In this document: in pieces, positions 3,704-38,601 of the stretch | Position numbering within the stretch: the first letter of the stretch is position 1 | Layout of the letters: each line of letters starts with the position of its first letter | The notes under the pieces: model-generated | Database searches by the model: none | What the model saw: only the letters and a program-made list of their open reading frames with translations | Told to the model about the DNA's origin: nothing | DNA from: a virus | Length of the DNA stretch: 51,126 nt | Strand: one strand, 5' to 3' | Virus record (IMG/VR): IMGVR_UViG_3300010413_000060 | Location: 1 to 51,126 of that record | Position numbers and translations under genes: made by a program

Positions 3704-3727
3704 AAACTTCCCCTATAAAAGAAATAC
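3704..3727 (-). repeat. Left copy of 24-bp inverted element, facing the helicase gene
   Basis: On the minus strand this reads GTATTTCTTTTATAGGGGAA followed by GTTT, identical over 24 bp to the right copy at 3941-3964 in the opposite orientation. It points toward the helicase start at 3649. The TATAGGGGAA end resembles the initiation end of T7-type promoters. Confidence 0.85.
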
Positions 3728-3729
3728 CA

Positions 3730-3886
3730 TATACCACCCATTTTTCGAATCATGTCTTTGTTTTTGTTGCCAATTTTACAAGCGTGTTAGCTGAATATAC
3801 CACTTGATACCATGACAAAATGACAGTGGTATACAGTAACATTTTGATCTGATTAATAAAACAGGGGTCATATACCACTATACCAT
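3730..3886. repeat. TATACCAC octamer array, region 1
   Basis: The octamer TATACCAC occurs at 3730-3737, 3796-3803 and 3871-3878. A tandem one-mismatch copy TATACCAT follows at 3879-3886, and an inverted copy GTGGTATA sits at 3826-3833. The array could be an iteron set or the binding sites of a phage regulator. Confidence 0.7.
3779..3795. repeat. 17-bp conserved box, copy 1
   Basis: CAAGCGTGTTAGCTGAA, identical to 38334-38350. It begins 72 bases after the first base of CTTCCCC in the left element; the second copy lies 73 bases after the matching point, so spacing is conserved along with sequence. Confidence 0.85.
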
Positions 3887-3940
3887 CCCCTGAAATAAAA
3901 TCCGGTCACGAAAGCACAAATCAAAAACGCCCCAAGTATA

Positions 3941-3964
3941 GTATTTCTTTTATAGGGGAAGTTT
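3941..3964 (+). repeat. Right copy of 24-bp inverted element
   Basis: GTATTTCTTTTATAGGGGAA followed by GTTT on the plus strand. It points back toward the 3' end of the Rz1 gene and lies right after the T tract of the minus-strand terminator, so any transcript from it would be antisense to the lysis genes. Confidence 0.85.
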
Positions 3965-4007
3965 TAAAAAGCCCCGACGGCGGCTGGAAGCGTTACCGAC
4001 GCCGGGG
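3965..4007 (-). terminator. Intrinsic terminator of the virion/lysis block
   Basis: On the minus strand, two bases past the Rz1 stop codon, GGGG+CGCC can pair with GGCG+CCCC through a 3-base bulge (3972-4007), giving about 8 G-C pairs. This is followed by CTTTTT (3966-3971). It is the clearest Rho-independent terminator in the window and marks the end of the 34-kb late block. Confidence 0.75.
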
Positions 4008-4009
4008 AA

Positions 4010-4294
4010 TCACTCTGCATTGATCCAGTCGCGAAGCGCTTGATGCTTCCGCGCGCACTCCCGCAGTGCGGCGACATCGTCGAAATGTGCCCGCAGAACG
4101 TCCCTGACGGCGTCTGACAGCGGCAAATCGGAAAGGTTATCTGGCAGGCGGGAAGCTTCCGTGCACGGCGCCAGCGCTTCGGTAGGCTTTTGGCGGGGTA
4201 TCGGGTCAGTCGTCGCCGGCCGCAGAGTTCCACAGCCGGGCAAAATCAGGCCCGAAAGGATTACCAGTGCCACCGTCCGAACAAATTTGATCAT
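4010..4294 (-). CDS. Rz1-like outer-membrane spanin lipoprotein
   Basis: 94 residues. It begins with a short basic N-terminus and a hydrophobic segment ending in LPGC (Cys at about 21), a lipoprotein signal, followed by a Pro-rich stretch (TTDPIPRQKPTEALAPC). Its start lies inside the last 89 bases of the Rz gene in another frame, the classic nested arrangement of Rz/Rz1. It would be anchored in the outer membrane and join the Rz protein across the periplasm in the last step of lysis. At 94 residues it is longer than lambda Rz1, with a helical C-terminal extension (DAVRDVLRAHFDDVAALREC) of unknown role. Confidence 0.88.
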   Translation of the reverse strand: MIKFVRTVALVILSGLILPGCGTLRPATTDPIPRQKPTEALAPCTEASRLPDNLSDLPLSDAVRDVLRAHFDDVAALRECARKHQALRDWINAE

Positions 4295-4613
4295 GATCCT
4301 TCACCACGGCCGCTTCACGCAGCTTTCGTTCAAGGTCCCGGCGTTCCTGCCGGGTACGTTCAAGGTCGGCCGACAGCGCTTCAGCGGCGGCCTGATCCCG
4401 GGAAATCTGTTCCCGGTATTTCTGCATAAATTGTTCGTGCTGCTTCGCGTAATTTTCGGCGATTTCCGCCCTTTCCGCTTCCATCACTGCCCGGTATCGC
4501 CACCCGTTTACCGTCCAGCCGGCCGCGAAAATGAACCCCGCCAGCGCCGCGATCCCGACGACGCGCAGATTCAATTTGCGAAGGAATGCCCATAAAATCG
4601 ACAATGCAGCCAC
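4206..4613 (-). CDS. Rz-like inner-membrane spanin
   Basis: 135 residues: one N-terminal membrane segment (about 17-35, VVGIAALAGFIFAAGWTVNG) and then a long charged coiled coil (about 40-105, AEIAENYAKQHEQF onward), the typical build of an i-spanin. The start used is GTG at 4613; a TTG at 4604 has a better-spaced GGGGTGG site, so the true N-terminus may be three residues shorter. Rz1 overlaps its 3' end in a different frame. Together they fuse inner and outer membranes at lysis. Confidence 0.88.
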   Translation of the reverse strand: MAALSILWAFLRKLNLRVVGIAALAGFIFAAGWTVNGWRYRAVMEAERAEIAENYAKQHEQFMQKYREQISRDQAAAEALSADLERTRQERRDLERKLREAAVVKDHDQICSDGGTGNPFGPDFARLWNSAAGDD

Positions 4614-4627
4614 CCCGTTTCGCCATA

Positions 4628-5155
4628 TCAGGCCCCAATTAGTTGAAGAATACGGGACGCCTGCCCGTGAAGTTCTTCGATTGTACCATTGTTGTAAACA
4701 ACGTGCCCGGCATAATAACGCGTTATCCCGTTTTCGGACGCGTGCCCGCCGTTATCCACGGCCCACTGTTCGTCCTTTTGAACCATGATCAGGGTACCCC
4801 CGTTCCGTAAAATCCATTGCGCTTCATTATCAAACCGCACGTCTGGAATGATAAGCTTCGGTTCTTTGATCATGACCTGTTCCGCCAGCAACAGCCACAC
4901 GTCAGGGTGAACCAGATTCCGGCCCCATTCAGTGCCGATCGTTTGCGCCAGATAGCGCGGCGACCGTCCCAGCCATGGAATTTTGCGTTCCTTCGTTTCG
5001 TGGTCGTCCCATACCGCCGGGTCAATATCAAACGCGCATTCCAACATTCGTTTCAGCGGGTCCGCGAACCCGTAGCGCTTCCATCCCCTGTCGATGAAAT
5101 ATTTCGCGAAAGTATCTTTACCTGCCCCGGCTTTTCCAATTACGCCAATTAGCAT
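4628..5155 (-). CDS. Deoxynucleoside monophosphate kinase
   Basis: 175 residues opening MLIGVIGKAGAGKDTFAKYF, whose P-loop GKAGAGKDT (about 7-15) with K-D-T is typical of phage dNMP kinases related to T4 gp1. Further family features are FADPLKRM, a WLGRSPRYLAQTIGTEWGR lid-like region and LIIPDVRFDNEAQWI. It would phosphorylate dNMPs to dNDPs for phage DNA synthesis. The start overlaps the preceding gene by 38 bases, with AAAGG ahead of the ATG. A nucleotide metabolism gene set between the hydrolase and the spanins, inside the late block, is out of its functional place. Confidence 0.85.
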   Translation of the reverse strand: MLIGVIGKAGAGKDTFAKYFIDRGWKRYGFADPLKRMLECAFDIDPAVWDDHETKERKIPWLGRSPRYLAQTIGTEWGRNLVHPDVWLLLAEQVMIKEPKLIIPDVRFDNEAQWILRNGGTLIMVQKDEQWAVDNGGHASENGITRYYAGHVVYNNGTIEELHGQASRILQLIGA

Positions 5156-5606
5156 AGTTTCGAACCTTTGTGTCTTTGTATAGGTTAATCACAGCCAGCC
5201 CATTTCCGGTGCTGGTGTCATGTTTCGCGGCAATTTCTACCGCACGGACGGCGTCCATTCCGGCTTCCATTGCGCCAATCGCAAAATCAGCGCCGCTTCC
5301 CCACGCGTCGAAATCCGAAAATACAGGCATCGGAACCATGTTGCTATCATATCCTTCGACTTTCCACGTGTCCAAATGCAGCACGACCACTTCCGTATCA
5401 TCGTCCAGCGACCAGTCATCGTTCTTTTTCTGGCCTTCCTTCCACCATTCAAGGAATCGTATCCCGCCGGACAGTGATCCAGTGACTGCCACAGCGATGT
5501 CGTGACCACGGACAACCCACAGTTTTTCGCATAATTTTCGCGCGACCCCGGCGGTCGCCTGTCGATCGGTGCACAAAATACCGTCTTTGTATGCGACTGT
5601 TGTCAC
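5118..5606 (-). CDS. HslV/proteasome-like Ntn hydrolase from an internal in-frame start
   Basis: Inside the phosphoesterase gene, GGAAGGTGG lies 5-6 bases ahead of an in-frame GTG at 5604-5606 that begins (M)TTVAYKDGILCTDRQAT. This is the normal N-terminus of phage HslV-like peptidases (MTT-x-A-x-x-D-G), where removal of Met exposes the nucleophilic Thr. The 162-residue product keeps the late conserved block WGSGADFAIGAMEAGMDAVR and AVEIAAKHD. Because Ntn hydrolases need a free N-terminal Thr, I infer that independent initiation, or self-cleavage of the fusion at Val508/Thr509, is required for activity. What it cleaves in infection is unknown. Confidence 0.72.
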   Translation of the reverse strand: MTTVAYKDGILCTDRQATAGVARKLCEKLWVVRGHDIAVAVTGSLSGGIRFLEWWKEGQKKNDDWSLDDDTEVVVLHLDTWKVEGYDSNMVPMPVFSDFDAWGSGADFAIGAMEAGMDAVRAVEIAAKHDTSTGNGLAVINLYKDTKVRNYANWRNWKSRGR

Positions 5607-7127
5607 CGCTTCCACCTTCCGCGCGCGTTTTCCGTTAGCGTATACGACGCAATCCGTGTGCATCCAGCTGGAAGGCCCGCGATTGTACTGTAACCGCAGC
5701 CGGCTGTTCGTGCCTACCGCGTAGCATCCTTCCTCGATTCCCGGGCTGTGCACGTGTCCGATCACGCTTTTTACGCCGATCCTGCGCAGGTTCATGATGT
5801 TTCCCCGGGCGCCGTTCGGACCCAGATCACCGTGCATACCCAGTTCGATTCCTTGCACCATATACGATTCGTCGCGCTTCAGTAACGTATTCGTTACCTT
5901 CAGCAGTTGCGCCGCCCAGTAATGGAACGGATCAACAGTGCGCGCGCCCGCCGGCGTCATTTCCGTTTGCCTGACCATTGCCAGCGCCGTTTCCAGATAG
6001 AATTCCATGTGCGTCGGATCGGCGCGCCAGTCAGTTTCGCGAATCCAGCGTTCTAAACCTTCATTATGGTTACTCGGCACAATGACGTTTTCGAACCCCG
6101 CCCCGTACTTGTTGATGAAATCGCATGTCAGCTTCAATTCGTCCGGAATGCTGGACATGCGCGCCTTGTGCTTCGCCAGATTGATGAACGGATTCAGCTT
6201 GTCGTGATGATTCTTCGCGTAATTGTCGAACACGTCATGCCAGATAAGCTTTTTCGGGCGCAACACCGAAACGATCGAATCGGGTCCTTCGAATGTTGCC
6301 GGCACCACGCCGTCGTCGATGAACTGAATATGGGAATCGCCCATGATCAGCGCGGCAGCTGGCGGCGCGTCTTCCACCCCTGCCGGCGTGTATTTCTTGT
6401 CCTTATCGATGAACGTCCCGTTATTCAATGCCAGCAGGTGCCGCATAAAGAACAAATCGCCGACGATTTCGACGACAACGGCGCCAAGCGAATGATGGAA
6501 TTCGCCGCGCTTGCCTATAGCAGTATCGGTATAATTTTCGACAGTAACAGCGCCGGTCGTCGTCATCAGTTTGGGCAGTTTGTGCGACGGCGTCGCGACG
6601 GACTTCAACTGAATTTTCGGGTGCGCCAGAATGCCGGATTTCGCCCCGGTTATCGATTCGAAACCCGTCAGCGGCTGTATGTTCGTCGGCTGTGTCCGAA
6701 TGTCCCCTAAAACCACAAGGTTTTCGTTTATTTCTGCGCGACTGGCAAACAGGTATTCGGTTAACGCCGGGTCCCACCAGTCGTCGTCCTGCTGGCGTTG
6801 TCCCCAGACGCTTGTCGGATTCTTGTAACGGATCGGGATTACTGACAGGTGCGCTTCGTTATGGTTGCAGAAAACTTTCAGCGCTTGAAGGAATTTTTTG
6901 TGCGGCGGCGTAGCGTTTTGCGCTGCTGTGAAAACGTATGTACCGGCCGGCGGCAGGGTCCCTTCGAATTGTTTGTGCGCCGGTTCCTTCGCCGGCTTTG
7001 ATGCTGCCGGATTCGCTGTCGTCTTGCCACATGATCGACAAGCCCAGCGCTGCTGTTTGCCATAGTGTCTTTCCCGGCTGCCATCCTTGCGCAGCGTACC
7101 CTGTTCGCCACAGTGCGGACAAAACAT
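5118..7127 (-). CDS. Zinc ribbon-metallophosphoesterase, fused in frame to an HslV-like hydrolase
   Basis: 669 residues in three parts. Residues 1-40 are a zinc ribbon (C3-x2-C6 and C30-x2-C33). Residues about 130-500 carry calcineurin-like phosphoesterase motifs: GDSH (263-266), SNHNE (352-356), HGD (432-434) and GHVHSPG (457-463). The part ends with LQYNRGPSSW and a YANGKR strand, which I take to be the normal end of this phosphoesterase type. Residues 508-669 are an HslV-like Ntn hydrolase. No stop codon separates the last two parts, so the fusion is real in the DNA. However, the hydrolase also has its own start (see 5118-5606), so two products are likely. The phosphoesterase substrate is unknown; nucleic acid ends or nucleotides are plausible. 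Confidence 0.82.
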   Translation of the reverse strand: MFCPHCGEQGTLRKDGSRERHYGKQQRWACRSCGKTTANPAASKPAKEPAHKQFEGTLPPAGTYVFTAAQNATPPHKKFLQALKVFCNHNEAHLSVIPIRYKNPTSVWGQRQQDDDWWDPALTEYLFASRAEINENLVVLGDIRTQPTNIQPLTGFESITGAKSGILAHPKIQLKSVATPSHKLPKLMTTTGAVTVENYTDTAIGKRGEFHHSLGAVVVEIVGDLFFMRHLLALNNGTFIDKDKKYTPAGVEDAPPAAALIMGDSHIQFIDDGVVPATFEGPDSIVSVLRPKKLIWHDVFDNYAKNHHDKLNPFINLAKHKARMSSIPDELKLTCDFINKYGAGFENVIVPSNHNEGLERWIRETDWRADPTHMEFYLETALAMVRQTEMTPAGARTVDPFHYWAAQLLKVTNTLLKRDESYMVQGIELGMHGDLGPNGARGNIMNLRRIGVKSVIGHVHSPGIEEGCYAVGTNSRLRLQYNRGPSSWMHTDCVVYANGKRARKVEAVTTVAYKDGILCTDRQATAGVARKLCEKLWVVRGHDIAVAVTGSLSGGIRFLEWWKEGQKKNDDWSLDDDTEVVVLHLDTWKVEGYDSNMVPMPVFSDFDAWGSGADFAIGAMEAGMDAVRAVEIAAKHDTSTGNGLAVINLYKDTKVRNYANWRNWKSRGR

Positions 7128-7136
7128 GCTGCCCCC

Positions 7137-7514
7137 TTATTTTCTTAATTCAAGTTCGCGTATTTTCTGTTCGTGTGCATTTAGCTGATCCCGAAATTGC
7201 CTGTGCGCTTCCTTGTCGCTGTTTTGATGCGTATCGATCTGTTGCTGCAAAAAATCAAGTCGCTGATCGCGCAGCCTGAAGTCTTGAACAGCTGTCGAAA
7301 TACTATATTGTGCTTTAGTACCATCGACGACAACCTGCTGTAAAGTCCTTAATTGTGAAGTCGTCGTGGCGGCCCACCATACCCCGGAAACAGTCGCGCC
7401 GACTATCCAGATCAGGAACGTGACAGCGACGGCCGGTTTGATCCGGTCCTGTTTCGTGTGCAGTTCCTGCCAAATCTGGTCAAGTTCTTGCTTAAGTTCT
7501 TGCATGTCAGTCAT
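7137..7514 (-). CDS. Single-span membrane protein with flanking coiled coils, lysis cassette
   Basis: 125 residues: an amphipathic N-terminal helix (ELKQELDQIWQELHTKQD), one membrane span (about 27-50, AVAVTFLIWIVGATVSGVWW) and a long coiled-coil C-terminal domain (RLRDQRLDFLQQQIDTHQ onward). It overlaps the holin gene by 4 bases and follows the endolysin and holin, so it is probably a second holin-type or holin-regulating protein. It is unlike Rz, which is present elsewhere. The exact role cannot be told from sequence. Confidence 0.75.
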   Translation of the reverse strand: MTDMQELKQELDQIWQELHTKQDRIKPAVAVTFLIWIVGATVSGVWWAATTTSQLRTLQQVVVDGTKAQYSISTAVQDFRLRDQRLDFLQQQIDTHQNSDKEAHRQFRDQLNAHEQKIRELELRK

Positions 7515-7717
7515 TCGCTCGGTCCACCCCTACGCCATTTAAACAAAGCGACAGCTGCCGCCGGAACGCCCACAACAGTTCCAAGTGCGCTTACCACTGC
7601 CGCATTGATCAGCGTAAGGTCGTCAAATACCCGATAGACGACCCATGTCAGTAATAGGTACGTCCAAATGACAAGGATCGCCGAAATGACCTTATATTTT
7701 TCAAGGTATTCAAACAC
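7511..7717 (-). CDS. Holin, two membrane segments
   Basis: 68 residues starting at GTG 7717 (V/MFEYLEKYKVISAILVIW). This start lies two bases after the endolysin stop codon and has GGAGG 14 bases upstream; a GTG at 7744 would add nine residues but lacks a ribosome site. Two hydrophobic segments (about 9-28 and 36-58, the second Ala/Val-rich) and a basic, Gly-rich C-terminus (FKWRRGGPSE) fit a small class II holin that lets the endolysin reach the wall. Confidence 0.78.
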   Translation of the reverse strand: MFEYLEKYKVISAILVIWTYLLLTWVVYRVFDDLTLINAAVVSALGTVVGVPAAAVALFKWRRGGPSE

Positions 7718-7719
7718 GT

Positions 7720-8259
7720 TCAGAAAACCGCCCTCCGGAACCACCCCAGCGCAAATTTTTGCAGCTTAGGATTCCGCTTCATTATACCTTCGTAAAATTT
7801 CTTTTGCATAGTGCGCAGCGTCATAATCACAGCGTAATCATGCTTTTCTATATCGTTCAAACACTTAATCGTATGCGGCCCAACAATTCCGTCAATTAGC
7901 AGGGTGCACCCGTGGTCGCTGGCCGCCGACTGCGCCAGTTTCCACGCCTGTTTGCTGCCCATATTCACAGCCATATCGAAAATCTTCGTCGCTAGTAGCT
8001 GACTTTTGATTTCGCCTAGTCTGTTAGCGTCCCAGAACCCTGACCGGTAGACTTCCTTCGCCTGCGGGACTGTCATCGCCACGATGTCGTCAATGTCAAT
8101 GTCCCCGTCCCCGTCGAAATCGCCCAGCAGATCGCCGCGCTTCGTCAGATACCGCAGGGAAACGCCGTATTTCGTGGCGCCGCCGGGGTCGTCTGGATCG
8201 TTTACGTACCCGCCTTCATGTTCCAGAATTTTATCGATAGCCGTATAAAAATTTGCCAT
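7720..8259 (-). CDS. Endolysin, GH108 family N-acetylmuramidase, with EF-hand-like loop
   Basis: 179 residues. HEGGYVNDPDDPGGATKYGVS (about 14-34) is the hallmark of glycoside hydrolase family 108; the Glu of EGGY (residue 15) is the catalytic acid. The C-terminal half (FDMAVNMGSKQAWKLAQ, DGIVGPHTIKCLN) matches the family's second peptidoglycan-recognition part. Residues 47-58 read DFDGDGDIDIDD, an EF-hand/dockerin-like Ca-binding loop inserted after the active-site lobe. No signal peptide is present, so export depends on the holin. It cuts the glycan chain of peptidoglycan. Confidence 0.9.
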   Translation of the reverse strand: MANFYTAIDKILEHEGGYVNDPDDPGGATKYGVSLRYLTKRGDLLGDFDGDGDIDIDDIVAMTVPQAKEVYRSGFWDANRLGEIKSQLLATKIFDMAVNMGSKQAWKLAQSAASDHGCTLLIDGIVGPHTIKCLNDIEKHDYAVIMTLRTMQKKFYEGIMKRNPKLQKFALGWFRRAVF

Positions 8260-8268
8260 TGTGCGTCC

Positions 8269-11200
8269 TTAAGTAACGTCGATTGATTCGGGAACCGTAC
8301 TGTTCAGCGGTTCAAGGATAGCATAAGCCATCGCTACACCCGTCAGCTGATCCGTTATCCAGATAAAGATCGGGCGCCCGGTATGGTGATAATGCAGGAA
8401 GGTGACTGCCACCCCCTGCCAGTTCGACGGACTGACGCTGTCATTCAGGACGCTGTTTACGACCCGCGTCGTGTATGGCGACACCCCTTGTCCGTCAAAA
8501 ATAAGTTGCGCCGGCGAACCGCCGTCTTTCACGATGAAGATTCGGCCCATATTGCCGCTTCCTGTTCCGTCGTTCAATCTGGCACCGTACGCCATGTTGA
8601 AATTAAGCTGCGACAAAACGACCGGGCTTCCCGGCGATCCCGGCCGGGTAAGCACGACAGACGGCGACACAATCGTTCCGTAAGGAATGCGGCCCATGAA
8701 TTGAATGTTTGGATCGGCGAGAAATGATGTCAGCGACCAATCGAATGAATTTGTAAGTCGTTCGCGCGCTACACGTTCGGGACTCGTCGCATTTCGTGCT
8801 TCGACTTCCACACGAAGGCGTCCTGATAAATTATCGCCGACTGTTCCCAGAATATCATTCGGGTCGAAATTCAGCGTATTGTTTCCGACAGCATCCGGCG
8901 CCGTGTCGCGTTGAGCAATTAAGTTCGGACTGCCAATATTCGGACTTCCTTCATCGTACAGTTCGACGCGGTAATACAGCCCATATCCCGCATCGGCGCC
9001 GCCGGGTTCGAAGTCTACCCCATTATTGTTGTCGCCAAGAACGTTATTTACGCCAAGCGTTGTTAGCCAGTTCCTGCGCAGCCAGTTGACATTTATTCCG
9101 CTACTTGTTGCGGCATTAAATGATACAGCGTCGTCATATCGGACGGTCGACATTTTCAATTCAGCGGGCGGCATCGGCGCGTAATACCTGAACCCGTCAT
9201 GAATCTTTATCGGATTCGTGTACGATGCTGACGCGATCGGAAGCGCCCCGCTTTCCTGCGTAGACGGTAGTAGTTTAGCGCGAACCCACCAGTTTTCCGT
9301 GAATGATACTGAACTAAGTCCGACACCTGCTGACGCAAGGAACCATATCCGCGAACCTGCCGGCCACGCCTTCGGCACAGTATCCAAACAGCCGCGATAG
9401 CAATCCCGCAGTTCTAACCCGGCTTGTTGCGGCGATCCGCCAACGCTTGCCAGTGCCCGCGAATAAATTACGAATTCGCCGGCATCCCGCAGATTATCTG
9501 GCGACGACAGCGCTTCGGGCGCAATGTAAACAAGCGTCAGCAGATTATCCATATCCGATTTCGTGCGCGCCGCTGCGTCTATCAATTCTGACAAATCGCC
9601 GCCGCCAGCTATCGGATTCACGAAAATGTCGCCGGTCCCCTGACTCGGCAGCGACTGTTCCGTACCCGGTATCGCTGTTCGTAAACTTCCAATCAGAACG
9701 GAACCCGGAATTGCCCCGGAATTTTCTTGAAGTGTAGTCGGAAGGGTCGACTTTATGGAAGACTGCCCAGTGTGAATTTCGTATTCGTCGCCAGTTATCA
9801 TTCGTGCAGCTGTCACTATGCGCGGCAGGATTTCCGGATTATCCGGGTCCTGATCATTCATCGCTTTAGGTGCTTCGAAAATCAGTTGATCTTCGACATT
9901 GATCGCCGTCACAGTTTGCGTCGGCGCCGTCCAGTTGCTGTCGATCGGATCGCCAAAACTTGCAGCGTGACTGGTAAACACGTCTTCGACCGCGTCAATA
10001 TGCAGCATATTGTCGGCGTTATCGCCGGCCTGAACACGGTTTATCCGCATCAGCAGTTCACTGATTCCAAGCGCCGCCCACGAAAACCGGAACAGGCTTC
10101 CGGGTTTCAATGTGTACAGTTCACGCTTTACGGAACACGATATTTTAGCCAGCGGATACGCTAGTGATCGCATGTCGCGCCACGCGATAAAATTTGCGGC
10201 CGCCTTGTCTTTCAGTCCCATGAATTGTTCTGTCACGACGACTTCGGCGCCCTGAATAATACGGTTCGCCATATCCTGCGCAAGCGCGAACGATTCTTTG
10301 TATTCTTTATCAGGATCGTAATACTTCACTCGAACAGAATTCGACGTTTCAGACCACGCTGGTCGACTGAATTCGACATTATCAGCGTTAGATTCGTCGA
10401 CTAAAGGTATTACCGACAGCGGACTAGGAATGTCGCTTTCACGAATCAGTGTGAATGTATACAGTCCAGTTTCAGGGTCAAGTATCAATACGCCGTCCAC
10501 CATGCGTTCAATTTCAGCGATCAGATCACTGACTTTACGCTGGCGGTCGAGTATGGCCGAAAATCCAAGTCCTTCGTCGTATAACACCTGCGCATTTTTT
10601 CGCAGTGTATGCTGGTCGATTGACGCCGGATTGATCGAAAGTCCCCATTCCGAATCCGTCATAATTTCGAACAAAACGTTCATCGGGTTAGCGTGCCGCC
10701 CGTTGATAAGTTCGGTTCCGGTTCCCGGTGATGACGTTGCAAGGCTAAGTCCGTCGGGGATTCTGCGAAGTTCGAACTTCCACGGCCGCAGCGACGGGGA
10801 ATTTCCAACGTAAATTTGTTCCGCTACAACGTAGCAGGTTCCGCGATACGCTGGAAGGATGTCAGGTGAATAGTTCAAGACGCCTTCAAGGTATGTGCTG
10901 CGCGCCTGTGACAGCGTGCCCGGAAAAAACGAAAGATTACCGGATATTCCGCCGGCATCTTCGCCGTATAGTGTCGGCGCGTCGATAGTGAACGACCCGC
11001 TTGTGATTATTGGTGACGCCAGTACGGCCGTATCATCGATTCGTATTTTCAGCAAGCCGTCATGCGGACCATTCAGCGGACCACGACACAGTCCGAACTG
11101 CATCCCCAAATAATAGCGGTATCCGACAGTTACTTTTTTCGACGAAAACATGCCAGTTTTAATTTTTTCGCGAATACGATCTGTGCGAAGATCGCCGTAC

Positions 11201-11391: not shown

Positions 11392-11393
11392 AA

Positions 11394-15093: not shown

Positions 15094-15096
15094 CGT

Positions 15097-19061: not shown

Positions 19062-19113
19062 TATTGCTTCCTATTCGCTTGATCGGATAATTCTAAAGTA
19101 TACGCCGAAACGT

Positions 19114-19142: not shown

Positions 19143-19163
19143 ATTACCGTACGGGAACGGAAA

Positions 19164-19206: not shown

Positions 19207-19207
19207 A

Positions 19208-22668: not shown

Positions 22669-22671
22669 GGT

Positions 22672-26310: not shown

Positions 26311-26343
26311 AGTTCTTCATGACACAGGTCACAAAAGTGACAA

Positions 26344-28590: not shown

Positions 28591-28591
28591 T

Positions 28592-29435: not shown

Positions 29436-29459
29436 TTCTGTGACTCCCTATTTGTAAAT

Positions 29460-29481
29460 GGCCGGGGACGAATCCCCGGCC
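29460..29481 (-). terminator. UUCG-loop hairpin behind the major capsid gene
   Basis: GGCCGGGGA-TTCG-TCCCCGGCC on the minus strand is a 9-bp perfect stem with a UUCG tetraloop, 25 bases after the capsid stop codon. It is followed by ATTTAC, not a T tract. Likely a partial terminator or a 3' stabiliser of the capsid mRNA. Confidence 0.6.
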
Positions 29482-29505
29482 AGCTTGCCCGCACCCGTGC
29501 GGTTA

Positions 29506-30534: not shown

Positions 30535-30561
30535 TTGTCCTTACTCCATGTAAACGATTGA

Positions 30562-31368: not shown

Positions 31369-31428
31369 TTAGCCTTTACTCCCTAAAGGATGCGCGGCGC
31401 CTGCCGCTGTTTAATGGTTACGCTGTGA

Positions 31429-31457
31429 ATTTTAAAAACTTAAAACGTATTTTGCAA
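31429..31457 (-). promoter_or_regulatory. Strong sigma70-type promoter for scaffold and capsid
   Basis: TTGCAA (31452-31457) and TAAAAT (31429-31434) with a 17-bp spacer, in the AT-rich gap 31369-31491. A/T tracts (31461-31495) lie upstream of the -35 as in UP elements. The leader of about 55 bases contains a GCGGC/GCCGC hairpin and a TAGGGAG ribosome site. It would boost scaffold and capsid expression inside the late block. Confidence 0.6.
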
Positions 31458-31491
31458 GTCGGAATTAAATTAAAATTTCAGTCCCCTGATT

Positions 31492-31680
31492 TTAATAGCC
31501 CGGCCCGGGTTCCGGATGGTCGAAGCTTGCCGCTTTTACCGCCAGCGCTTCGTAAAGATCGGGAAATAAGGTTATTTCAAATTTGTCAGCCTGCAATTCT
31601 AGCGCTTTCATTTGCTCGAATGCGTCGGCCGGTATCGGTTCGCGCTGGATCAGCGCCATTGCCTGTTCGATTACGTCCAT
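31492..31680 (-). CDS. Small acidic helical protein after the minor head gene
   Basis: 62 residues (MDVIEQAMALIQREPIPADA, then FEQMKALELQADKFEITLFP). The start codon shares its A with the stop codon of the minor head gene (TAATG), so translation is coupled. No family recognised. Small proteins at this place may help head assembly. Confidence 0.7.
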   Translation of the reverse strand: MDVIEQAMALIQREPIPADAFEQMKALELQADKFEITLFPDLYEALAVKAASFDHPEPGPGY

Positions 31681-33281
31681 TACACGCTACCTTTATCCAC
31701 TGATTTGAAGAACTTATAAAGCGGCGGGTACACCCGTTTCTTTTCGCCATACACGTACCGAACGAACTGTTCGGCGATAAATTCATAGTCGTCGGACATC
31801 CCATATTCGGAAGTCTGGCGCATCCACATATACCGCCGCTTCGAATTCTTGCGCAGATCGGCCAGTATCGGGTTCAGCTTGTCCCGATACACTTGATGGA
31901 ACCGATGACCGTTTTCATGGATGAAAATCTGCGCAATCTTTTCTTCGGCCTTCGTAAAATGCGGGTCGCCGACGGTCCACGCCCAGTCCTTGCGGTCGAT
32001 CGCTTCCTGAATTGCGTCGACCAGCGCCGGTTCGTCCATTTCTTTAGCCTGACGCAACAGCGATTCAAAAATGCCCTTATTCCGCTTTTCGTGCCATGCT
32101 TTATATTCCGGAGTCTGGTCCCTGTCTATGCGTTCCTGTAGTTTCTTGCGGTCAACGCCGATTTTCTTAAACAGCAGCGAATCGGATTCCATGTGCACCG
32201 CCGCGTTATTCTTCGACGACCAGCGGAACCGCATCGACGGATGTTGCCCCGGATCGCCGATAAAATTCGCCTTTTTAATTCCAAACCGCTGTTCCATATT
32301 GCGGGTCGTTTGCATGGCAACACGCAGCCCGACCCGATCGGCGCCCTTCGTGAACGACGCCAGCTTGCCCGGTGCCACCATATTTTCCGTCACCCAGCGT
32401 TCGGCCATGTCCTGCGACGTGAATTCCGGAACGTCTTCGGCCGGGGTCGGCGTTGCCTGCGGAACGGCGGGTTTAGCCGCGATCGTGGCGGCCGTCGCCC
32501 GGGCGCGCCGTTTCTTCGCCAGTTCGGTAAGCTGATCTGGCGTCAGCGGGTTTCCCTTGAAATCGAGCATTTGTTGCAGGGTTATTTTTCCACTGCGCCA
32601 TAACCGGGCACGCGTCGCGCCCAGTAGCTTGTCCTGAAATGACTTGCCCTTTTTCTTAAGGAACGCGTCAAACGTCTGGTCGGCCGGCACCTGCCCGTCC
32701 ATGCTGGCCCGGGTCCCCGGCGACAGGTCCTTTAACGGTATGCCCAGTTCTTCCCAGCTTTTCAATACGGGGACAAGCGTCGACCGGCAGTTGAAGTGCC
32801 GTGGCGGTCCGCCATTAAAGGCCAGTGTTGACGGCGGAATGGGTTCGTACCCGGGAAGCGACCATGTCTGACCGTCGTACGCGACGCAAATTACCGACGT
32901 GCGATTATCCAGCGTCGACACTTGCTTGATGCCCTTCACCACGTCATCGTTAGATTCAAACGTGCGTAATCGGGCTTCGTTTGTGACCTTGTTCACAGCC
33001 GTACGTCCCAGCGCTTCGGCATTCGATTTCGCCGCTTTCATGATCCCGGGAACCTGAACCCCGTCGATCACGCCACCGCTGATCCGCTTCGTCAGCTTGT
33101 CGATCCCTTCGCCGTTTTCCATGGATATTCGAACCGTATCCATGAATTTGTTGTGCAGTTCGGTACCCTGCCGGCGCCACCATGCGACCGGCCGTGCCCC
33201 CTGAATCAATACGTCATCAGCCAGCGCCCGCGCGGTCGTCGGGTCCAGCGTCTTTCCGGTAAACTTGATTTCACGGGACAC
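31680..33281 (-). CDS. MuF-type minor head protein fused to a zincin-like metallopeptidase domain
   Basis: 533 residues. Residues 1-185 match the C-terminal half of MuF-like phage head morphogenesis proteins: DPTTARALADDVLIQGARP, VAWWRRQGTELHNKFMDTVR, RTAVNKVTNEARLRTFESND, LDNRTSVICVAYDGQTW and PPRHFNCRSTLVP, the last with the conserved H-x-N-C-R. After a linker, residues about 300-533 hold HENGHRFHQVY (HExxH at 455-459) with downstream DDYEFIAEQFVRYVYG (Glu500/Glu504 as third-ligand candidates), a zincin pattern. The peptidase may be ejected with the DNA or act in maturation. The N-terminal half of the usual MuF protein is on a separate gene (33760-34092). Confidence 0.85.
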   Translation of the reverse strand: MSREIKFTGKTLDPTTARALADDVLIQGARPVAWWRRQGTELHNKFMDTVRISMENGEGIDKLTKRISGGVIDGVQVPGIMKAAKSNAEALGRTAVNKVTNEARLRTFESNDDVVKGIKQVSTLDNRTSVICVAYDGQTWSLPGYEPIPPSTLAFNGGPPRHFNCRSTLVPVLKSWEELGIPLKDLSPGTRASMDGQVPADQTFDAFLKKKGKSFQDKLLGATRARLWRSGKITLQQMLDFKGNPLTPDQLTELAKKRRARATAATIAAKPAVPQATPTPAEDVPEFTSQDMAERWVTENMVAPGKLASFTKGADRVGLRVAMQTTRNMEQRFGIKKANFIGDPGQHPSMRFRWSSKNNAAVHMESDSLLFKKIGVDRKKLQERIDRDQTPEYKAWHEKRNKGIFESLLRQAKEMDEPALVDAIQEAIDRKDWAWTVGDPHFTKAEEKIAQIFIHENGHRFHQVYRDKLNPILADLRKNSKRRYMWMRQTSEYGMSDDYEFIAEQFVRYVYGEKKRVYPPLYKFFKSVDKGSV

Positions 33282-33290
33282 GGCGCGCTG

Positions 33291-33536
33291 TTACAGTTCG
33301 AACCAAAGCATTGTTACCACTTCGTTTTCGTCGAACAGCGGGTACGTGTCAAGCATACGCCCCAGCAATCCCTGATATGGACCGCCAATATTAACTGTTT
33401 TCAGGTCAACGAAACGAATCACCTGCGCCGCGACGACTGGAACAACAGTATTTTCGTCAAGGGGAAGTTCTTTCAGGTCAGAATTCGTGGCGCCACGAAA
33501 AATCCGCCATCCGTACTGTACGGTGTCCTTCGGCAT
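33291..33536 (-). CDS. Small protein inside the split minor head locus
   Basis: 81 residues (MPKDTVQYGWRIFRGATNSD, VVPVVAAQVIRFVDLKTVNI, YPLFDENEVVTMLWFEL), beta-rich and acidic. A GGGAG ribosome site (CTAGGGAGAAACAGATATG) gives it independent initiation. It lies between the genes for the two parts of the minor head protein. No family recognised. Confidence 0.65.
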   Translation of the reverse strand: MPKDTVQYGWRIFRGATNSDLKELPLDENTVVPVVAAQVIRFVDLKTVNIGGPYQGLLGRMLDTYPLFDENEVVTMLWFEL

Positions 33537-33571
33537 ATCTGTTTCTCCCTAGTGGTTTCTTGCGAATTCTA

Positions 33572-33763
33572 TCAGATCGTGACGCGCTTTAAAATTTTCC
33601 GCAGCCGCTGGCATTGACGGGAAATTTCATAAAATGTCGCCGCATTGCTGTTCGTTTGCCGCAGCTTATTAAACCGATGATCGGCGGCAGCGCCCACCAG
33701 TTCGGCCCATTCGTCGATTTCAAGCCCGTTAAGTTGTTCGATCAGTTTCGCTTTGTCGGTCAT
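33572..33763 (-). CDS. Small helical protein inside the split minor head locus
   Basis: 63 residues, mostly helical and basic at the end (EQLNGLEIDEWAELVGAAAD, ISRQCQRLRKILKRVTI). The start overlaps the stop of the preceding gene by four bases (ATGA). No family recognised. It may be a small assembly cofactor. Confidence 0.65.
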   Translation of the reverse strand: MTDKAKLIEQLNGLEIDEWAELVGAAADHRFNKLRQTNSNAATFYEISRQCQRLRKILKRVTI

Positions 33764-34092
33764 GGTATGTTCGTTTCCAGTGCGGCCACGACAGTTTCGG
33801 ATTCGGCCAGCGCCATTTGAATCGAATACTGCCGGGTAATCTGATTGATGTCGGCGTATGCCTGCCGAATAGCTTCCCGACTGGCAGCGTCAAGTTTCTT
33901 CATCCGTCGTACCCGGGCATCCGTGCGCGGCGTCCCTGCCGGATCGATTTGTTCCGCTAATCGACGAAGTTCCCTTTCTAATTCGTCCATGCGCGCCGCG
34001 ATCCTGCGACGCAAACCCGATTCTGCCTTAGTCTTTTGTACATCATGTTCGGTCAGGTCGTCAAGTACCTGATCTGCTACGCTGTCAGCCAT
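33760..34092 (-). CDS. N-terminal helical part of a MuF-type minor head protein, on its own gene
   Basis: 110 residues starting MADSVADQVLDDLTEHDVQK. The start at 34092 is preferred because it directly follows the small gene ahead; the longer frame begins in that gene. LRRRIAARMDELERELRRLA and AIRQAYADINQITRQYSIQM with ALAESETVVAALETN correspond to the helical N-terminal region of MuF-like minor head proteins, whose C-terminal half is encoded at 31680-33281. Two complete small genes lie in between, so this is a stable split rather than a simple frameshift. Confidence 0.65.
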   Translation of the reverse strand: MADSVADQVLDDLTEHDVQKTKAESGLRRRIAARMDELERELRRLAEQIDPAGTPRTDARVRRMKKLDAASREAIRQAYADINQITRQYSIQMALAESETVVAALETNIP

Positions 34093-34192
34093 GTGCGCGC
34101 CCAGCTGGTTTCGGTGGCCGTGGTTTAGGTGCAGGGTTCGGCTTCCCATTGCGCCCGCCGCAGCCGCAGCCGGCCTGAAGTGTGCAAGCCAT
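34085..34192 (-). CDS. Tiny Cys/Pro-rich protein
   Basis: 35 residues, M-A-C-T-L-Q-A-G-C-G-C-G-G-R-N-G-K and then a P/K-rich tail. The ATG shares its first base with the stop of the secreted-protein gene (TAATG), and its own stop overlaps the next start by 8 bases, the geometry of translational coupling. Tiny Cys-Gly/Pro proteins of this kind are often seen in phage head modules but have no known function. Confidence 0.5.
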   Translation of the reverse strand: MACTLQAGCGCGGRNGKPNPAPKPRPPKPAGRAHG

Positions 34193-34548
34193 TACAGCGC
34201 CGACCCTGCGAACACGTCATGCGACGCTGTGCAGACGTTTGACGCCCCTTCACCGGACGATACGGCGACGACAATCTGATATTCGCCGTCATATAGCCGC
34301 ACCTGAAGCTTGATAGCGTTTGACGACTGATCTTCCATCACAGTTCCGTCTTCGATCAGTCCGGTCGCCTTGTTTACGATTACGAAGGCGTAATTATATG
34401 TCCCATTCCCGCCAACAGCGACGGCGGCGTAATCACGAATCGTCCCTGATTCGACGGCATCGGGACCTGAAATCATACAAACCAGCGATTCAGCCGCTGC
34501 GGTTGCCGACATAAGGAACAGTGCTGCTACTATAAAAAATCTTTTCAT
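34192..34548 (-). CDS. Secreted/periplasmic protein within the head module
   Basis: 118 residues with a clear signal peptide (MKRFFIVAALFLMSATAAAE, cleavage after about residue 19) and a small all-beta domain (YAAVAVGGNGTYNYAFVIVN, YDGEYQIVVAVSSGEG) with two Cys that could form a disulphide. It overlaps the upstream gene by 4 bases (ATGA). A secreted protein between portal and minor head genes is odd; it may be a moron acting in the host periplasm, for example in superinfection exclusion, or a decoration. Unproven. Confidence 0.75.
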   Translation of the reverse strand: MKRFFIVAALFLMSATAAAESLVCMISGPDAVESGTIRDYAAVAVGGNGTYNYAFVIVNKATGLIEDGTVMEDQSSNAIKLQVRLYDGEYQIVVAVSSGEGASNVCTASHDVFAGSAL

Positions 34549-34691
34549 TTACCCTTTCCTTTTTTCATGTGTTTAAAGGCCCGAACGTCCTGTTCCCGTG
34601 CTTCGGCTTCCTTTTTCGAAGGATAGCATCCCAGATTCCGCCCTGTCGACTTCGAAATTACGCAATACTTTCCGCCGCGCTTCGTAATCAT
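34545..34691 (-). CDS. Small conserved phage protein between portal and minor head genes
   Basis: 48 residues, MITKRGGKYCVISKSTGRNL followed by GCYPSKKEAEAREQDVRAFK and a basic tail. This pattern (K-x-G-x-x-Y-x-V-x-S-x-x-G-x-x-L-G-x-Y-x-T/S-K-x-x-A-x-x-R) is common in very small phage proteins near portal genes. ATGA overlaps at both ends couple it to the portal and to the secreted protein. Function unknown. Confidence 0.75.
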   Translation of the reverse strand: MITKRGGKYCVISKSTGRNLGCYPSKKEAEAREQDVRAFKHMKKGKGK

Positions 34692-36388
34692 GGCGCCCCG
34701 TCCCCGTCCGTGTCAGTCGCTGACGTTGATCCTTCCGATTCCGATTCTTCGGATTGCGGCTGTGCGGCCGTGTCGCGTTCGGCCATGCCCAGCGCGTGTT
34801 TATGCGTCGGGTCGCCGGCCGCGCCAGTTTCGGCCGCTGTCGGTTCCCACTTGTGCCGGTGACCGTCGACGCTGTTCGTCCAGCCGTTCGCCTGTAACGT
34901 GTGCGCGTGACCCTGCGCCGGCCCGGTCGTATCGCCCGGCATGTTGCCCTGTTCCAGTTCCCATTCGGTCAGGCCCGCGCGATCCGGTGCTTCAAGGTCC
35001 AGCAGATCAATTTCGGCTTGCGGGTCGAAATCATCGGACAGCAATCCACGGCGTTTCAGTTCCTGCCAGTATGTCAGCTGCGAAATGTCGCCGCGCGCCC
35101 GCATGTTGCCCAGTTCCTTGATGTCTTCCGCGTCGCGCATCGTCAATGAAAAGTCCTTGAACAATTCGACAGTTCCCCCGGCATCCGTGCCCAGTCCGAG
35201 GAAAACAGCGAAATAATCAAGCATTAATCCCAGCGATTGTTCCAGTACCCGGGCAAACATGGACAGCGGCGAATCCGCTTCGGATTGATCCAGCACGCGC
35301 GCGGTCGCCGTTGCGCTGCCACTGCGGGCACCACCCTTGATCAGCATGTTCAGGCCCATTTGCGACATGCGTTCTTCAAGGTCCTTCAGGTCCTGCCGGC
35401 CAGCTTCGATCCCCTTCCCTGTATGCTCGACGTATTTCAGGTCGCTGCCGATCTGGCCGTTTATGAATGTCGTCGCCCCGATGTTCAGCTTCTTAACCGG
35501 TGCTTCGCTGTCGCCCAGTCCGGCGGCGAATAGGATCGGAACCCGTGCCACGTGAAGGATATTCCGCTGATCGCTATCGGACTGCCAGTGCGCGACGTTC
35601 AAATGCGCAAGGTCCAGCATCGCAGGTTCGGCAGTCATGAATCCGGTCGCGCTGGCATAAACCGGGATCAGGGGAATGAAGTCCAGCGGCTGCCCGTTCA
35701 CCAGTACCGGGTAACTGTCCACCATTACCCAGTCCTGTTTCCCGTTGTCCAGTGTCTTCAGTTCGAACACCCGATAAAACCCGGCTTCCAGAACCCGGAT
35801 GCGTTCGACGCGTTCCTGTTCGAATTCGCCAGTGTCTTCGTACGATTCTTCCCTGATCCTGACCTGTGTCAGCACGCGTTTTCCGTTACGGACTTCGGAT
35901 TTCCAGCCGATAATCTGCGTTGCCAGATAGTGCACAGCGTACGGACGGATATTTTCCGCCGTTTCCTGTTCGACGGTCCGCTGCCCGTCCGTTCGCGGGA
36001 AATCGACCAGTATGTACGTGATCCCGTGGTTCATCGACGCTTCACCGATCTGTTTCGTGAATACGTCGATGTCGGTACCCTGACCGTCGATATTGTCCCG
36101 ATATTCTTCGACTTTTACAGGAACGTCGTCCTTCAATACGACCGGCTGTTTAAGCGGCTTCGATACCAGCTTTTCGATCGTGTCGCGGTAATAATTCGTC
36201 AGAACAGACTGTTTCAGACGCGCTAAATATGCGGCGTCCGGTTCGTCAGTCATGGGCGGCAGGTACCGCTTCCCGGCTTTGCGCATCGCCCGGGTTCCGC
36301 CCCACAGGGTATCGACCAGCGCCCAGTTCGGGGTCATTTCGCCATATTGCGCGACTGGAATTGCGACGGGGTTCGTCTTTTCGGTCAT
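34688..36388 (-). CDS. Portal protein (DUF4055-like)
   Basis: 566 residues. The N-terminal ALVDTLWGGTRAMRKAGKRY and LPPMTDEPDAAYLARLKQSV with LTNYYRDTIEKLVSKPLKQ match phage portal proteins of the DUF4055 family. It also has the typical stem helix region (LAHLNVAHWQSDSDQRNILH) and the later SATATARVLDQSEADSPLSM block. It forms the dodecameric DNA gate. The C-terminal 60 residues carry three H-x-H elements (GHAHT, GHRHK, THKHA) and an acidic Ser/Glu/Asp tail. It overlaps the terminase gene by 4 bases. Confidence 0.9.
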   Translation of the reverse strand: MTEKTNPVAIPVAQYGEMTPNWALVDTLWGGTRAMRKAGKRYLPPMTDEPDAAYLARLKQSVLTNYYRDTIEKLVSKPLKQPVVLKDDVPVKVEEYRDNIDGQGTDIDVFTKQIGEASMNHGITYILVDFPRTDGQRTVEQETAENIRPYAVHYLATQIIGWKSEVRNGKRVLTQVRIREESYEDTGEFEQERVERIRVLEAGFYRVFELKTLDNGKQDWVMVDSYPVLVNGQPLDFIPLIPVYASATGFMTAEPAMLDLAHLNVAHWQSDSDQRNILHVARVPILFAAGLGDSEAPVKKLNIGATTFINGQIGSDLKYVEHTGKGIEAGRQDLKDLEERMSQMGLNMLIKGGARSGSATATARVLDQSEADSPLSMFARVLEQSLGLMLDYFAVFLGLGTDAGGTVELFKDFSLTMRDAEDIKELGNMRARGDISQLTYWQELKRRGLLSDDFDPQAEIDLLDLEAPDRAGLTEWELEQGNMPGDTTGPAQGHAHTLQANGWTNSVDGHRHKWEPTAAETGAAGDPTHKHALGMAERDTAAQPQSEESESEGSTSATDTDGDGAP

Positions 36389-37767
36389 AAGTAAAGTAAC
36401 TCCGACGTTGCGTCAGTCCTGCGAACCGGATATTCCTTCACAATGTAGTAACCCAGTCCGTCCGTTAAGTGCGTCAGTTTCGGGTCGTGCTTTTTGTCAA
36501 TTTCGCCCGATCCGCCTTCCAGTAATCGCACGCCTTCGAAATCTTCGACTGTTTTCGGTGCTGCAACGGGGTCGATCATCAGGTGCACGTTGTCTTCCCC
36601 GCTTTTCAAGCGCGTGTTCACGGCGTTGATCCGCGACCGTTCGCTGGGGTTAGACGGCGGAACGCGAAAAAATATCCGATCAGTACCGAAATGTCCATAC
36701 AGCGCATTTTTTACCAAGTCCCAGTCGCTGCCGGCCACGGCCGACGTTCTGCGCGCCCCGCCAGTTGCATCACCGTAAACGAAAATTCGACCGTTGTGGT
36801 TTCCCCAGTCTTCGATAAATTTCCGCATTACTGCCGGCGTGTTGCTATTGTTCGGAATGTGCACTTCACCGATGACCCCTGTTCCGCTTGTTGGCGCCGC
36901 CAATAAATTACCCAGCAATTCCGCGCCCCCGATCTTTATCGGTGCCAGCCCGGACGCGCGCAGGGGCAAGTCCATTTCTTGAGCGATAACCGCCGTCCCG
37001 GGGTTCACGTTGAAATCAAGGCATAGCGCCAGATCGCCATTAGGATTATACCGATCCCGCAGATTTCCGCAATGCACGGATTCTTCAAAAGGATAATACG
37101 CCCGTCCCTGAAAGTTAACAAACGACGCTTCGTATTCCTGTTCGAACGACAGCGGGTCAAGGTCCAGTCGCGCCGCTTCGATGACCGCCGGCGGAAGGAT
37201 CATGGACGATTTCCACGTGTAGGCTTCCCATCCTTCGCGAATCTGCGCGTTCTTGTACAGCCTGTAATAGTGGTTCCGGCCTTCCGGAACGCCGGTAAAT
37301 ATGCAGAATCCTTGACGATCTTCCAGCGCCGGCCTGACGTTTTCGGCCCACGCGTGTTCCTTCATGTTCGCGTATTCGTCAAGAACGCCCCCGTCCCATG
37401 GCGTGCCTTCGATACGTTCCGGCTTGTCCATACCGACGACCCACAGCGTCGCGCCGTTGATCAGTTCTATGGACAATTCGGTTTCCGACGGCTTCCGCTT
37501 CATCAGCCATGGCGGAATCATTGCCTTTAAATCTTTCCAGAATATGCGCTTCGCCTGATCACGGGTCGGCGCCCCGAAAAAGAAATTAGGCGCGAAATCG
37601 GCACCGGACCGCAAAGCACGGATGATTATTTTCCGCTTGGCAATTTCTGTTTTCCCAGACCGGCGGCCGGCAGGAACGACAATGAACCGCGCCGTACTGT
37701 GCAGAAATGACTGTTGAATAGGATGCGGACGAAGGACCGTCCAGCGTTTAGTCAGCTGAATTGCCAC
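36385..37767 (-). CDS. terL: Terminase large subunit
   Basis: 460 residues. ATPase motifs: Walker A GRRSGKT (about 34-40) and Walker B GGVLDEYA (126-133). Nuclease motifs: Asp250 in LCLDFNVNPG, Asp332 in FVYGDATGG and Asp435 in LTHLTDGLGYY, the three acids expected for the RNase H-like nuclease. It cuts and pumps DNA into the prohead through the portal encoded next door. It overlaps the small subunit gene by 20 bases. Confidence 0.95.
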   Translation of the reverse strand: MAIQLTKRWTVLRPHPIQQSFLHSTARFIVVPAGRRSGKTEIAKRKIIIRALRSGADFAPNFFFGAPTRDQAKRIFWKDLKAMIPPWLMKRKPSETELSIELINGATLWVVGMDKPERIEGTPWDGGVLDEYANMKEHAWAENVRPALEDRQGFCIFTGVPEGRNHYYRLYKNAQIREGWEAYTWKSSMILPPAVIEAARLDLDPLSFEQEYEASFVNFQGRAYYPFEESVHCGNLRDRYNPNGDLALCLDFNVNPGTAVIAQEMDLPLRASGLAPIKIGGAELLGNLLAAPTSGTGVIGEVHIPNNSNTPAVMRKFIEDWGNHNGRIFVYGDATGGARRTSAVAGSDWDLVKNALYGHFGTDRIFFRVPPSNPSERSRINAVNTRLKSGEDNVHLMIDPVAAPKTVEDFEGVRLLEGGSGEIDKKHDPKLTHLTDGLGYYIVKEYPVRRTDATSELLYL

Positions 37768-38251
37768 TGGTCACCTGTTCGAACGCGTCCGCTAGTTCGC
37801 GAAGCTTCGACGCCAAATCTTCCGGCTTTTCATCTTCCGCTACAGACGTAAAATATCCCGTCATTTCAGCGATCTGGATAGTCACCCGAACAGGATCGTG
37901 CAATTCGATTCGCGGCCCATGTTGCGTCCATTCGACTTTCTTGATCCGCTTGCGCTGTTCAGGCGTCAGTTCGTCAAGGTCCTTCAGCTGTTGCCAGCCG
38001 GACCCCGGAACGAAATATTCGGTCAGGTCGCCGTTCGCGATGTTGATCAGCCGGGCAAGGATCGTTTCGCGCGTTTCGCCGGCCACAGCGACCGCCGCCC
38101 GCGTATCGTGGTCAATGGCCGCCAGTACGGAAGCGTTCTTCAGCCAATCGTCGGCCGTCGCTTCGTCAATCCCGACGAATTCGGCCGCCTTCATTTTGTC
38201 ACCGGTCGCTATCACCTGATACGCGAACCGTCGTTGCCGTTCAGTCAGCAT
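37748..38251 (-). CDS. terS: Terminase small subunit
   Basis: 167 residues from ATG 38251 (MLTERQRRFAYQVIATGDKM, KAAEFVGIDEATADDWLKN). This N-terminal helix-turn-helix with T-E-x-Q-x-x-F and a following helical oligomerisation region (ETRETILARLINIANGDLTE) is typical of TerS. The upstream open frame runs into the control region without a ribosome site, while GGGAAGG lies 8-12 bases ahead of 38251. That ribosome site is the end of the left element of control region 2, so promoter and translation signals merge. Confidence 0.85.
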   Translation of the reverse strand: MLTERQRRFAYQVIATGDKMKAAEFVGIDEATADDWLKNASVLAAIDHDTRAAVAVAGETRETILARLINIANGDLTEYFVPGSGWQQLKDLDELTPEQRKRIKKVEWTQHGPRIELHDPVRVTIQIAEMTGYFTSVAEDEKPEDLASKLRELADAFEQVTSGNSAD

Positions 38252-38260
38252 CCCGCGAAC

Positions 38261-38280
38261 CTTCCCTATAAAAGAAATAC
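38261..38280 (-). repeat. Left element copy of region 2, facing terS
   Basis: On the minus strand GTATTTCTTTTATAGGGAAG; it differs from the region 1 element by one G. The following GG completes a ribosome site for terS 10 bases downstream. Confidence 0.85.
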
Positions 38281-38333
38281 TATACCGACTAGGCATTTTG
38301 CGGATGTTGACCACATAAATCAAATCGAAATTG

Positions 38334-38350
38334 CAAGCGTGTTAGCTGAA
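38334..38350. repeat. 17-bp conserved box, copy 2
   Basis: Identical to 3779-3795 (CAAGCGTGTTAGCTGAA), 34.5 kb away, and at the same distance from the left element. Confidence 0.85.
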
Positions 38351-38436
38351 GTCAGTAACCCATTGATTTATAGTCCACGGTAGAAATACAGGGGACAATA
38401 ATTTTAGAGTCCACCCTAAAATGAATCACATGGCAA

Positions 38437-38525
38437 AATACCACACTGAACCGTCTAGTATTCTAAATATCTGTCGTAACTATCTGGAATAAGTAAAGAA
38501 TTTCGACGATATACCACTATACCAC
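38437..38525. repeat. TATACCAC octamers, region 2
   Basis: Tandem TATACCAC at 38510-38517 and 38518-38525 plus AATACCAC at 38437-38444. The tandem pair starts 69 bases before the right element; in region 1 the tandem pair starts 70 bases before it. Confidence 0.7.
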
Positions 38526-38578
38526 CCTGAAAATATTTTTCGGGGTAAAAAGGCCAATTTAAATTTCCACCTAGTATA

Positions 38579-38601
38579 GTATTTCTTTTATAGGGAAAGT
38601 T
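38579..38601 (+). repeat. Right element copy of region 2
   Basis: GTATTTCTTTTATAGGGAAA followed by GTT on the plus strand, overlapping the stop codon of the double-HTH gene by a base. It faces into the 3' end of that gene, antisense to it, as the right copy in region 1 does to Rz1. Confidence 0.85.

Follow-up and report, generated by a model that had tools for sequence, protein, structure and literature searches.

A conserved pair of look-alike intergenic modules at the heads of the early and late gene blocks of a phage, probably involved in operon control

Intergenic regions rich in regulator sites have been described for two distantly related phages. In the Brevundimonas phage Delta, which has terminase and capsid similarity to YuA-like phages, many CtrA sites lie in a large intergenic region next to the structural module, and both CtrA binding and promoter activity were tested; in phage MMDA13, a repeat-bearing gap with sites for the regulator CtrA lies between divergent gene blocks (PMC9437464, PMC7472734). 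MMDA13 was also a terL match in the present analysis of a 51-kb stretch of viral DNA, hereafter called the window, in which two intergenic regions, R1 and R2, are described. As in R1 and R2, a large intergenic region parts gene blocks in Delta and MMDA13, and the dense short repeats found there are regulator sites, which makes transcription control the natural reading of the regions in the window. Unlike R1 and R2, these phages rely on a host regulator, CtrA, and the sections of the two reports cited here place it at one region, at a divergent junction, and mention no paired second copy.

The OL and OR regions of phage lambda are two look-alike operator regions under one helix-turn-helix (HTH) regulator, with DNA looping and lineage-specific operators. 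R1 and R2 are likewise two look-alike regions with one candidate HTH regulator, but the lambda sites are palindromic and serve a dimer, whereas those of R1 and R2 are asymmetric and the candidate is a tandem-HTH protein; also unlike lambda, no integrase was seen among the scanned proteins of the phages that carry R1 and R2. In satellite phage P4, two separated regions, ori1 and crr, contain the same short repeats and are bound by the alpha primase-helicase; R1 and R2 are also two separated repeat regions, but no such initiator is tied to them. The stoperators of Cluster A mycobacteriophages are asymmetric sites that diversify with their regulator, as the sites of R1 and R2 may do, but they occur as 20-30 scattered copies and not as two compact modules. 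A report of a paired look-alike arrangement was not found in the literature searched.

R1 (3704-3964) and R2 (38258-38602) have the same parts in the same order at similar spacing, as the initial annotation of this DNA had claimed, and the positions of the elements, boxes and octamers confirm it. The features of the two regions and of the adjoining genes are the following:

2183..3649, minus strand: SNF2/DEAD-type helicase gene, first gene after R1 (phrog_62, 5e-117)
3677..3705, minus strand: sigma70-like promoter TTGACA-17-AAGAAT, the predicted early promoter, just outside elD
3704..3731, minus strand: R1 downstream element (elD), gene-proximal, with flank GGTATATGGTATTTCTTTTATAGGGGAAGTTT on the gene strand; kept in 4/4 R1 regions
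3779..3795, minus strand: R1 17-bp box, conserved core CACGCTTG on the gene strand
3796..3833, 3796 plus and 3826 minus: R1 internal TATACCAC octamers
3871..3886, minus strand: R1 tandem octamers TATACCAC TATACCAT, GGTATA-GT-GGTATA on the gene strand, ~72 bp inside elU
3937..3964, plus strand: R1 upstream element (elU), inverted copy
3967..4007, minus strand: intrinsic terminator closing the lysis genes, immediately ahead of R1 (predicted fold -20.9 kcal/mol, then TTTTT)
4010..4294, minus strand: Rz-like spanin gene, last virion/lysis gene before R1
37748..38251, minus strand: terminase small subunit gene terS, first gene after R2 (phrog_51, 3.6e-9)
38258..38285, minus strand: R2 elD, ending a few nt short of the terS start codon
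38334..38350, minus strand: R2 17-bp box
38356..38368, minus strand: R2 IHF-consensus site AATCAATGGGTTA, 29 bp from the box core
38510..38525, minus strand: R2 tandem octamers, TATACCAC twice on the plus strand and GTGGTATA twice on the gene strand
38574..38601, plus strand: R2 elU, inverted copy, abutting the stop codon of the tandem-HTH gene
38601..38939, minus strand: gene of a 112-aa tandem HTH protein (two XRE-type domains), adjoining R2, candidate element binder

The 15-mer CTATAAAAGAAATAC occurs in four exact copies in the 51 kb (3713 plus, 3941 minus, 38266 plus, 38579 minus), which face inward at both ends of R1 and of R2, and the extended 28-bp arms of each region pair with 96% complementarity. 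The box AAGCGTGTTAGCTGAA is found in the window only at 3780 and 38335, once per region, within the identical stretch of 17 bp; its reported distance of 72-73 bases from the element proved exact, being 72 bp in one region and 73 bp in the other. All six copies of the octamer TATACCAC in the window lie within R1 or R2. The tandem octamer pair stands 70 bp (R1) and 69 bp (R2) before the inverted element, as had been stated, but an exact tandem repeat is absent from R1, where the second octamer reads TATACCAT. The statement that the sequence in between is not conserved holds only partly, and the IHF-consensus site of R2 is a further landmark missing from the original list. The GC content is 35% in the regions against 54% in the window; R1 and R2 are its lowest-GC islands, as they are in the nearest relative, G001. 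Since, in addition, the blind k-mer scan described below ranks R1 first for R2 (z=10), chance is no serious option. Judged from its sequence, the module is 220-335 bp of AT-rich DNA with a single asymmetric element repeated in inverted orientation at its two ends; secondary sites lie ~70 bp inward from either end. An extra palindrome like TTTAGAGTnnACTCTAAA, perhaps the operator of a second regulator, is seen in R2 of only some members (38380-38425 in the window, L022, L024, L088). No RNA family of Rfam was matched.

Homologues of R2 were compared from G001, L023, L024, L087, L088 and L090, and homologues of R1 from G001 (identical in G002), L270 and L273. These nine homologous regions from close relatives retain both ends and the landmarks, and with the window included seven R2 and four R1 share the same parts, at orthologous positions throughout and with the surrounding gene order kept. 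The inverted pair GTAT-N-TATAGG forms the ends in every close homologue (TATATGG in one G001 copy), in most close regions GGTATA repeats are located ~72-75 bp inward of the upstream end, and a CGCTTGCA-like box lies ~61-70 bp inside the downstream end, measured from box to TATAGG. The box stands 49-50 bp from the first repeat of the downstream element in nearly all cases, window R2 with 53 bp being an exception, and the IHF consensus of R2 (AATCAAnnnnTTA) stands exactly 29 bp from the box in 6/6 R2 regions with an exact IHF match. The 17-bp identity of the box is correct for the two regions of the window; across relatives only a core of ~8-11 bp (CACGCTTGCA) is conserved. The kept parts and distances strongly support the proposal that selection acts on the landmarks and their spacing: when relatives were searched for the element and the box, neither missing boxes nor free spacing nor many extra copies were seen in the close clade. 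The core of the element varies between phages and tends to agree between the two arms within a phage. By terL (78%), G001 is the closest relative, and yet it has the most different element; its downstream element, CGGTATACGTGTTTATA, has the same sequence at R1 and at R2 and is present in exactly two copies in the genome, with none elsewhere. By its conservation and positions, the paired module is real and conserved.

The gene surroundings indicate what the pair may serve. The 67-kb genome of G001, closed into a circle by a 144-nt terminal overlap, is split by R1 and R2 into late and early blocks, one region heading each, and the early block contains genes of DNA polymerase A, a TOTE-type primase, UvrD-like helicases and SSB. 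It also encodes a Mom-type DNA modification protein (L069:18373-19191). In the window, the genes around both regions are on the minus strand, and each region heads a minus-strand block, as the initial annotation had it: R1 is the head of the early/replication block, between the lysis-gene terminator and the SNF2-type helicase, while R2 is followed by terS (start 38251), terL and the virion block. An intrinsic terminator precedes R1 directly in 4/4 close members (window, G001, L270, L273; predicted folds of -21 to -28.5 kcal/mol, then TTTTT), and after R1 the same four carry a perfect TTGACA with a 4/6 match to the -10 box at 16-17 bp, the TTGACA starting 12-27 nt past the TATAGG start. Terminators also precede R2 of G019 and G028, two more distant relatives, and none is visible before R2 of the window. 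No convincing sigma70 promoter was found in R2 of the window, which is expected if late transcription requires an activator, and which alone is not evidence for one. TATAAT showed no enrichment over shuffles in the regions; a perfect extended -10 (TGTTATAAT) is present in both regions of G019. In L088 (1520-1560), a hairpin that has a short run of T residues (CGGCCGAAAATGGCCGTTTTG), possibly an attenuator, lies between R2 and terS.

Among the three meanings originally offered, operon control, paired origins and recombination for block exchange, operon control is the best supported, by the R1 terminator and promoter in 4/4, by the block-head position and by a co-occurring phage regulator. We give a probability of about 0.62 to the reading that R1 and R2 would be matched control modules of the early and late operons, acting through the tandem-HTH regulator; it ranks above paired origins, which are possible, and recombination has little positive evidence.

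Another explanation might be that the element is a promoter for a T7-like single-subunit RNA polymerase. Its end TATAGGGAA resembles TATAGGGAGA of T7, in the close clade no part of it is conserved better than its outer half TTATAGGGAAG, and TTATAGG is found again in G019; but PF00940 was not found in eleven records in a search run without a positive control, the only ORF of G001 longer than 648 aa is a 1031-aa gene at the position of a tail protein, and the upstream copy would transcribe antisense only. A phage single-subunit RNA polymerase was not found in these searches, and this explanation is largely refuted. A simple directional promoter also fails to explain the symmetry of the module, because there is no gene that the upstream inverted element could serve.

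The regions are too diverged for alignment, and landmark and k-mer methods were therefore used. BLASTN of the regions against the phage collection gave nothing useful. Exact-pattern scans of viral contigs with the element returned many chance matches in unrelated AT-rich contigs and were rejected. In the blind scan, whole genomes were searched using only 9-mers common to the terS-upstream region; we estimate the chance of a first-ranked match within ~1 kb of a given gene at ~2% per genome, figures that are not to be multiplied since the genomes are related. The helicase-upstream region was the top partner of the terS-upstream region in 7/7 phages with this helicase, even where the repeats are quite different (z of 10.0 in the window, 5.0 in G001, 13.2 in G005, 9.7 in G019, 4.7 in G028, and 8.7 and 13.3 in the cultured Pseudomonas aeruginosa phages M6 and PaMx11, respectively). 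Contigs without a clear homologue of this helicase yielded no such helicase-linked partner in the scan. In G005 (terL 64%), the repeat is ACCCTAC, 13/15 of its genome copies form two clusters, upstream of terS and of the helicase, the internal spacing is similar, and both regions have a perfect IHF site. The helicase (37-38%), the tandem HTH, a dCMP deaminase and a small 'DNA helicase' protein are shared with the YuA/M6/PaMx11 group, and membership in this group (Mesyanzhinovviridae) is possible.

G020, G006 and G027 are intermediate or partial cases. The strongest partner in G020 is ~4 kb from terS and not at a helicase; in this contig, which has no helicase homologue, TTAACATAAT repeats are densely packed in two clusters near terS, separated by 4 kb (37700-38600 and 41700-42700). 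In G006, the tandem HTH is present, and the second region is absent from its partial contig. Repeats of TTCTCGTTTTGTTC occur in R2 of G019 and G028 (also in L095 and L096), and none were seen in R1. MW202621 (L083/L084), a terL relative (59%), has divergent early and late blocks, not co-directional ones, and is without the elements and without a tandem-HTH match.

R2 of PaMx11 corresponds collinearly to the reverse complement of R1, which means that the module itself is not directional and, from the sequences, that it would work, or at least survive, in either orientation. Such an inverted copy, together with the inverted terminal repeats and the early block of MW202621, inverted relative to its late block, could also be expected of site-specific recombination sites or MITE copies used for block exchange or inversion. 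The start contexts of the helicase and terS of G001 are nearly alike (GCGGGATGCTGAC(C/G)GAA; L022 at R2, L057 at R1), and this shared context suggests some sequence exchange between the two regions. This explanation is nevertheless highly improbable: the regions hold the same two positions in all close relatives, with no variable insertion sites seen; G001 has no third copy; no recombinase or transposase is among the families listed for the scanned proteins; and, unlike in a MITE, the interior landmarks and their spacing are conserved. Among the families listed for scanned proteins of the G001 early block (in PHROGs, the best 25 of 33 families), there is no integrase or RNA polymerase.

Sites for host DNA-bending and initiator proteins bear on two more explanations. 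The IHF consensus is present in 10/18 regions versus 0.6 expected from shuffles, and the DnaA box TTATCCACA in 3/18 versus 0.04 expected, counts in which independent events are fewer than regions because the regions are related. As consensus matches, they would fit a bent regulatory complex and an origin alike. R1 and R2 might be paired replication origins, or halves of one bipartite origin, with an initiator on the repeats and IHF, in some regions with DnaA, helping to open the AT-rich DNA. The island-like low GC of both regions in the window and in G001, the IHF and DnaA counts, the symmetric, orientation-neutral module of PaMx11 and the helicase gene adjoining R1 all agree with this. However, DnaA boxes are absent from 15/18 regions, the only candidate phage binder seen to co-occur with them is a small regulator that lacks an ATPase, the order at R1 is terminator, module, promoter, and two equivalent copies would imply two origins; complete G001 has no GC-skew turn at either site, a weak test as all its genes are on one strand. 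We therefore consider an origin function possible, if unlikely.

R2 alone could be taken for a packaging start (cos/pac), where, on the model of lambda cosB, terS would bind inverted sites flanking a bend made by IHF, since R2 lies directly upstream of terS and has an IHF site between its repeats. A packaging start should be a single site, but R1 carries the same sites at a distance of 34 kb and would also be cut, and the sites go with the helicase operon as much as with terS, which leaves this function scarcely probable.

Returning to operon control, the elements are probably bound by the small tandem-HTH phage protein. The protein encoded beside R2 has two XRE-type HTH domains in tandem (AlphaFold2 pLDDT 93.4); a Foldseek search of the PDB returned mainly matches to single HTH domains of the XRE type, with no E-value below 1e-3. 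Homologues were identified in close relatives (G001, L023, L024, L087, L088, L090) and in distant ones (G005, G006, G019, G020, G028, M6 gp067, PaMx11 gp58 and Epa5), and the protein is encoded in all seven genomes with paired regions, a count of related genomes that includes partial contigs. Its gene adjoins R2 in the close clade and lies elsewhere in M6 and PaMx11. Within the close clade (n=7), the divergence of the first recognition helix tracks that of the element (Mantel r 0.71, p 0.04), compared with 0.48 (p 0.10) for the second helix and 0.30 (p 0.20) for the rest of the protein; this covariation is largely driven by G001 and is suggestive only.

The following course of events may be proposed, in which binding, looping and switching are inferred from sequence. 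Early transcription would be started by host sigma70 RNA polymerase at the TTGACA promoter just outside R1, and the early block would produce the 112-aa tandem-HTH protein, which would then bind the elements, perhaps with one HTH domain on each half of the asymmetric element. Bound at both module ends, the protein could bridge the inverted elements, while IHF would bend the DNA of R2. The resulting nucleoprotein complex might turn the early promoter down and set late transcription from R2, and one regulator would thus coordinate both operons. If both operons answer to one protein, the sites of R1 and R2 must change together, and the relatives show such concerted change. A broader proposition, rather doubtful at present, is that throughout the family two symmetric, orientation-neutral nucleoprotein modules, one for each operon, act together as a single switch (or as paired transcription-coupled origins), and that the sites and their tandem-HTH binder co-diversify so fast that sister phages carry incompatible versions, which would amount to a specificity code between co-infecting phages.

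The relatives, including two cultured Pseudomonas phages, carry the same pair with different repeats, which gives the two regions the appearance of matched control switches. They probably mark the location of the early-to-late switch in a phage group that includes the P. aeruginosa phages M6 and PaMx11, and M6 gp067 and PaMx11 gp58, annotated as hypothetical, are likely to be the switch protein. The proposed mechanism is not described in the literature searched and is directly testable in laboratory strains, and the genome-specific sites that match at two loci would lend themselves to work on the binding code of tandem-HTH proteins.
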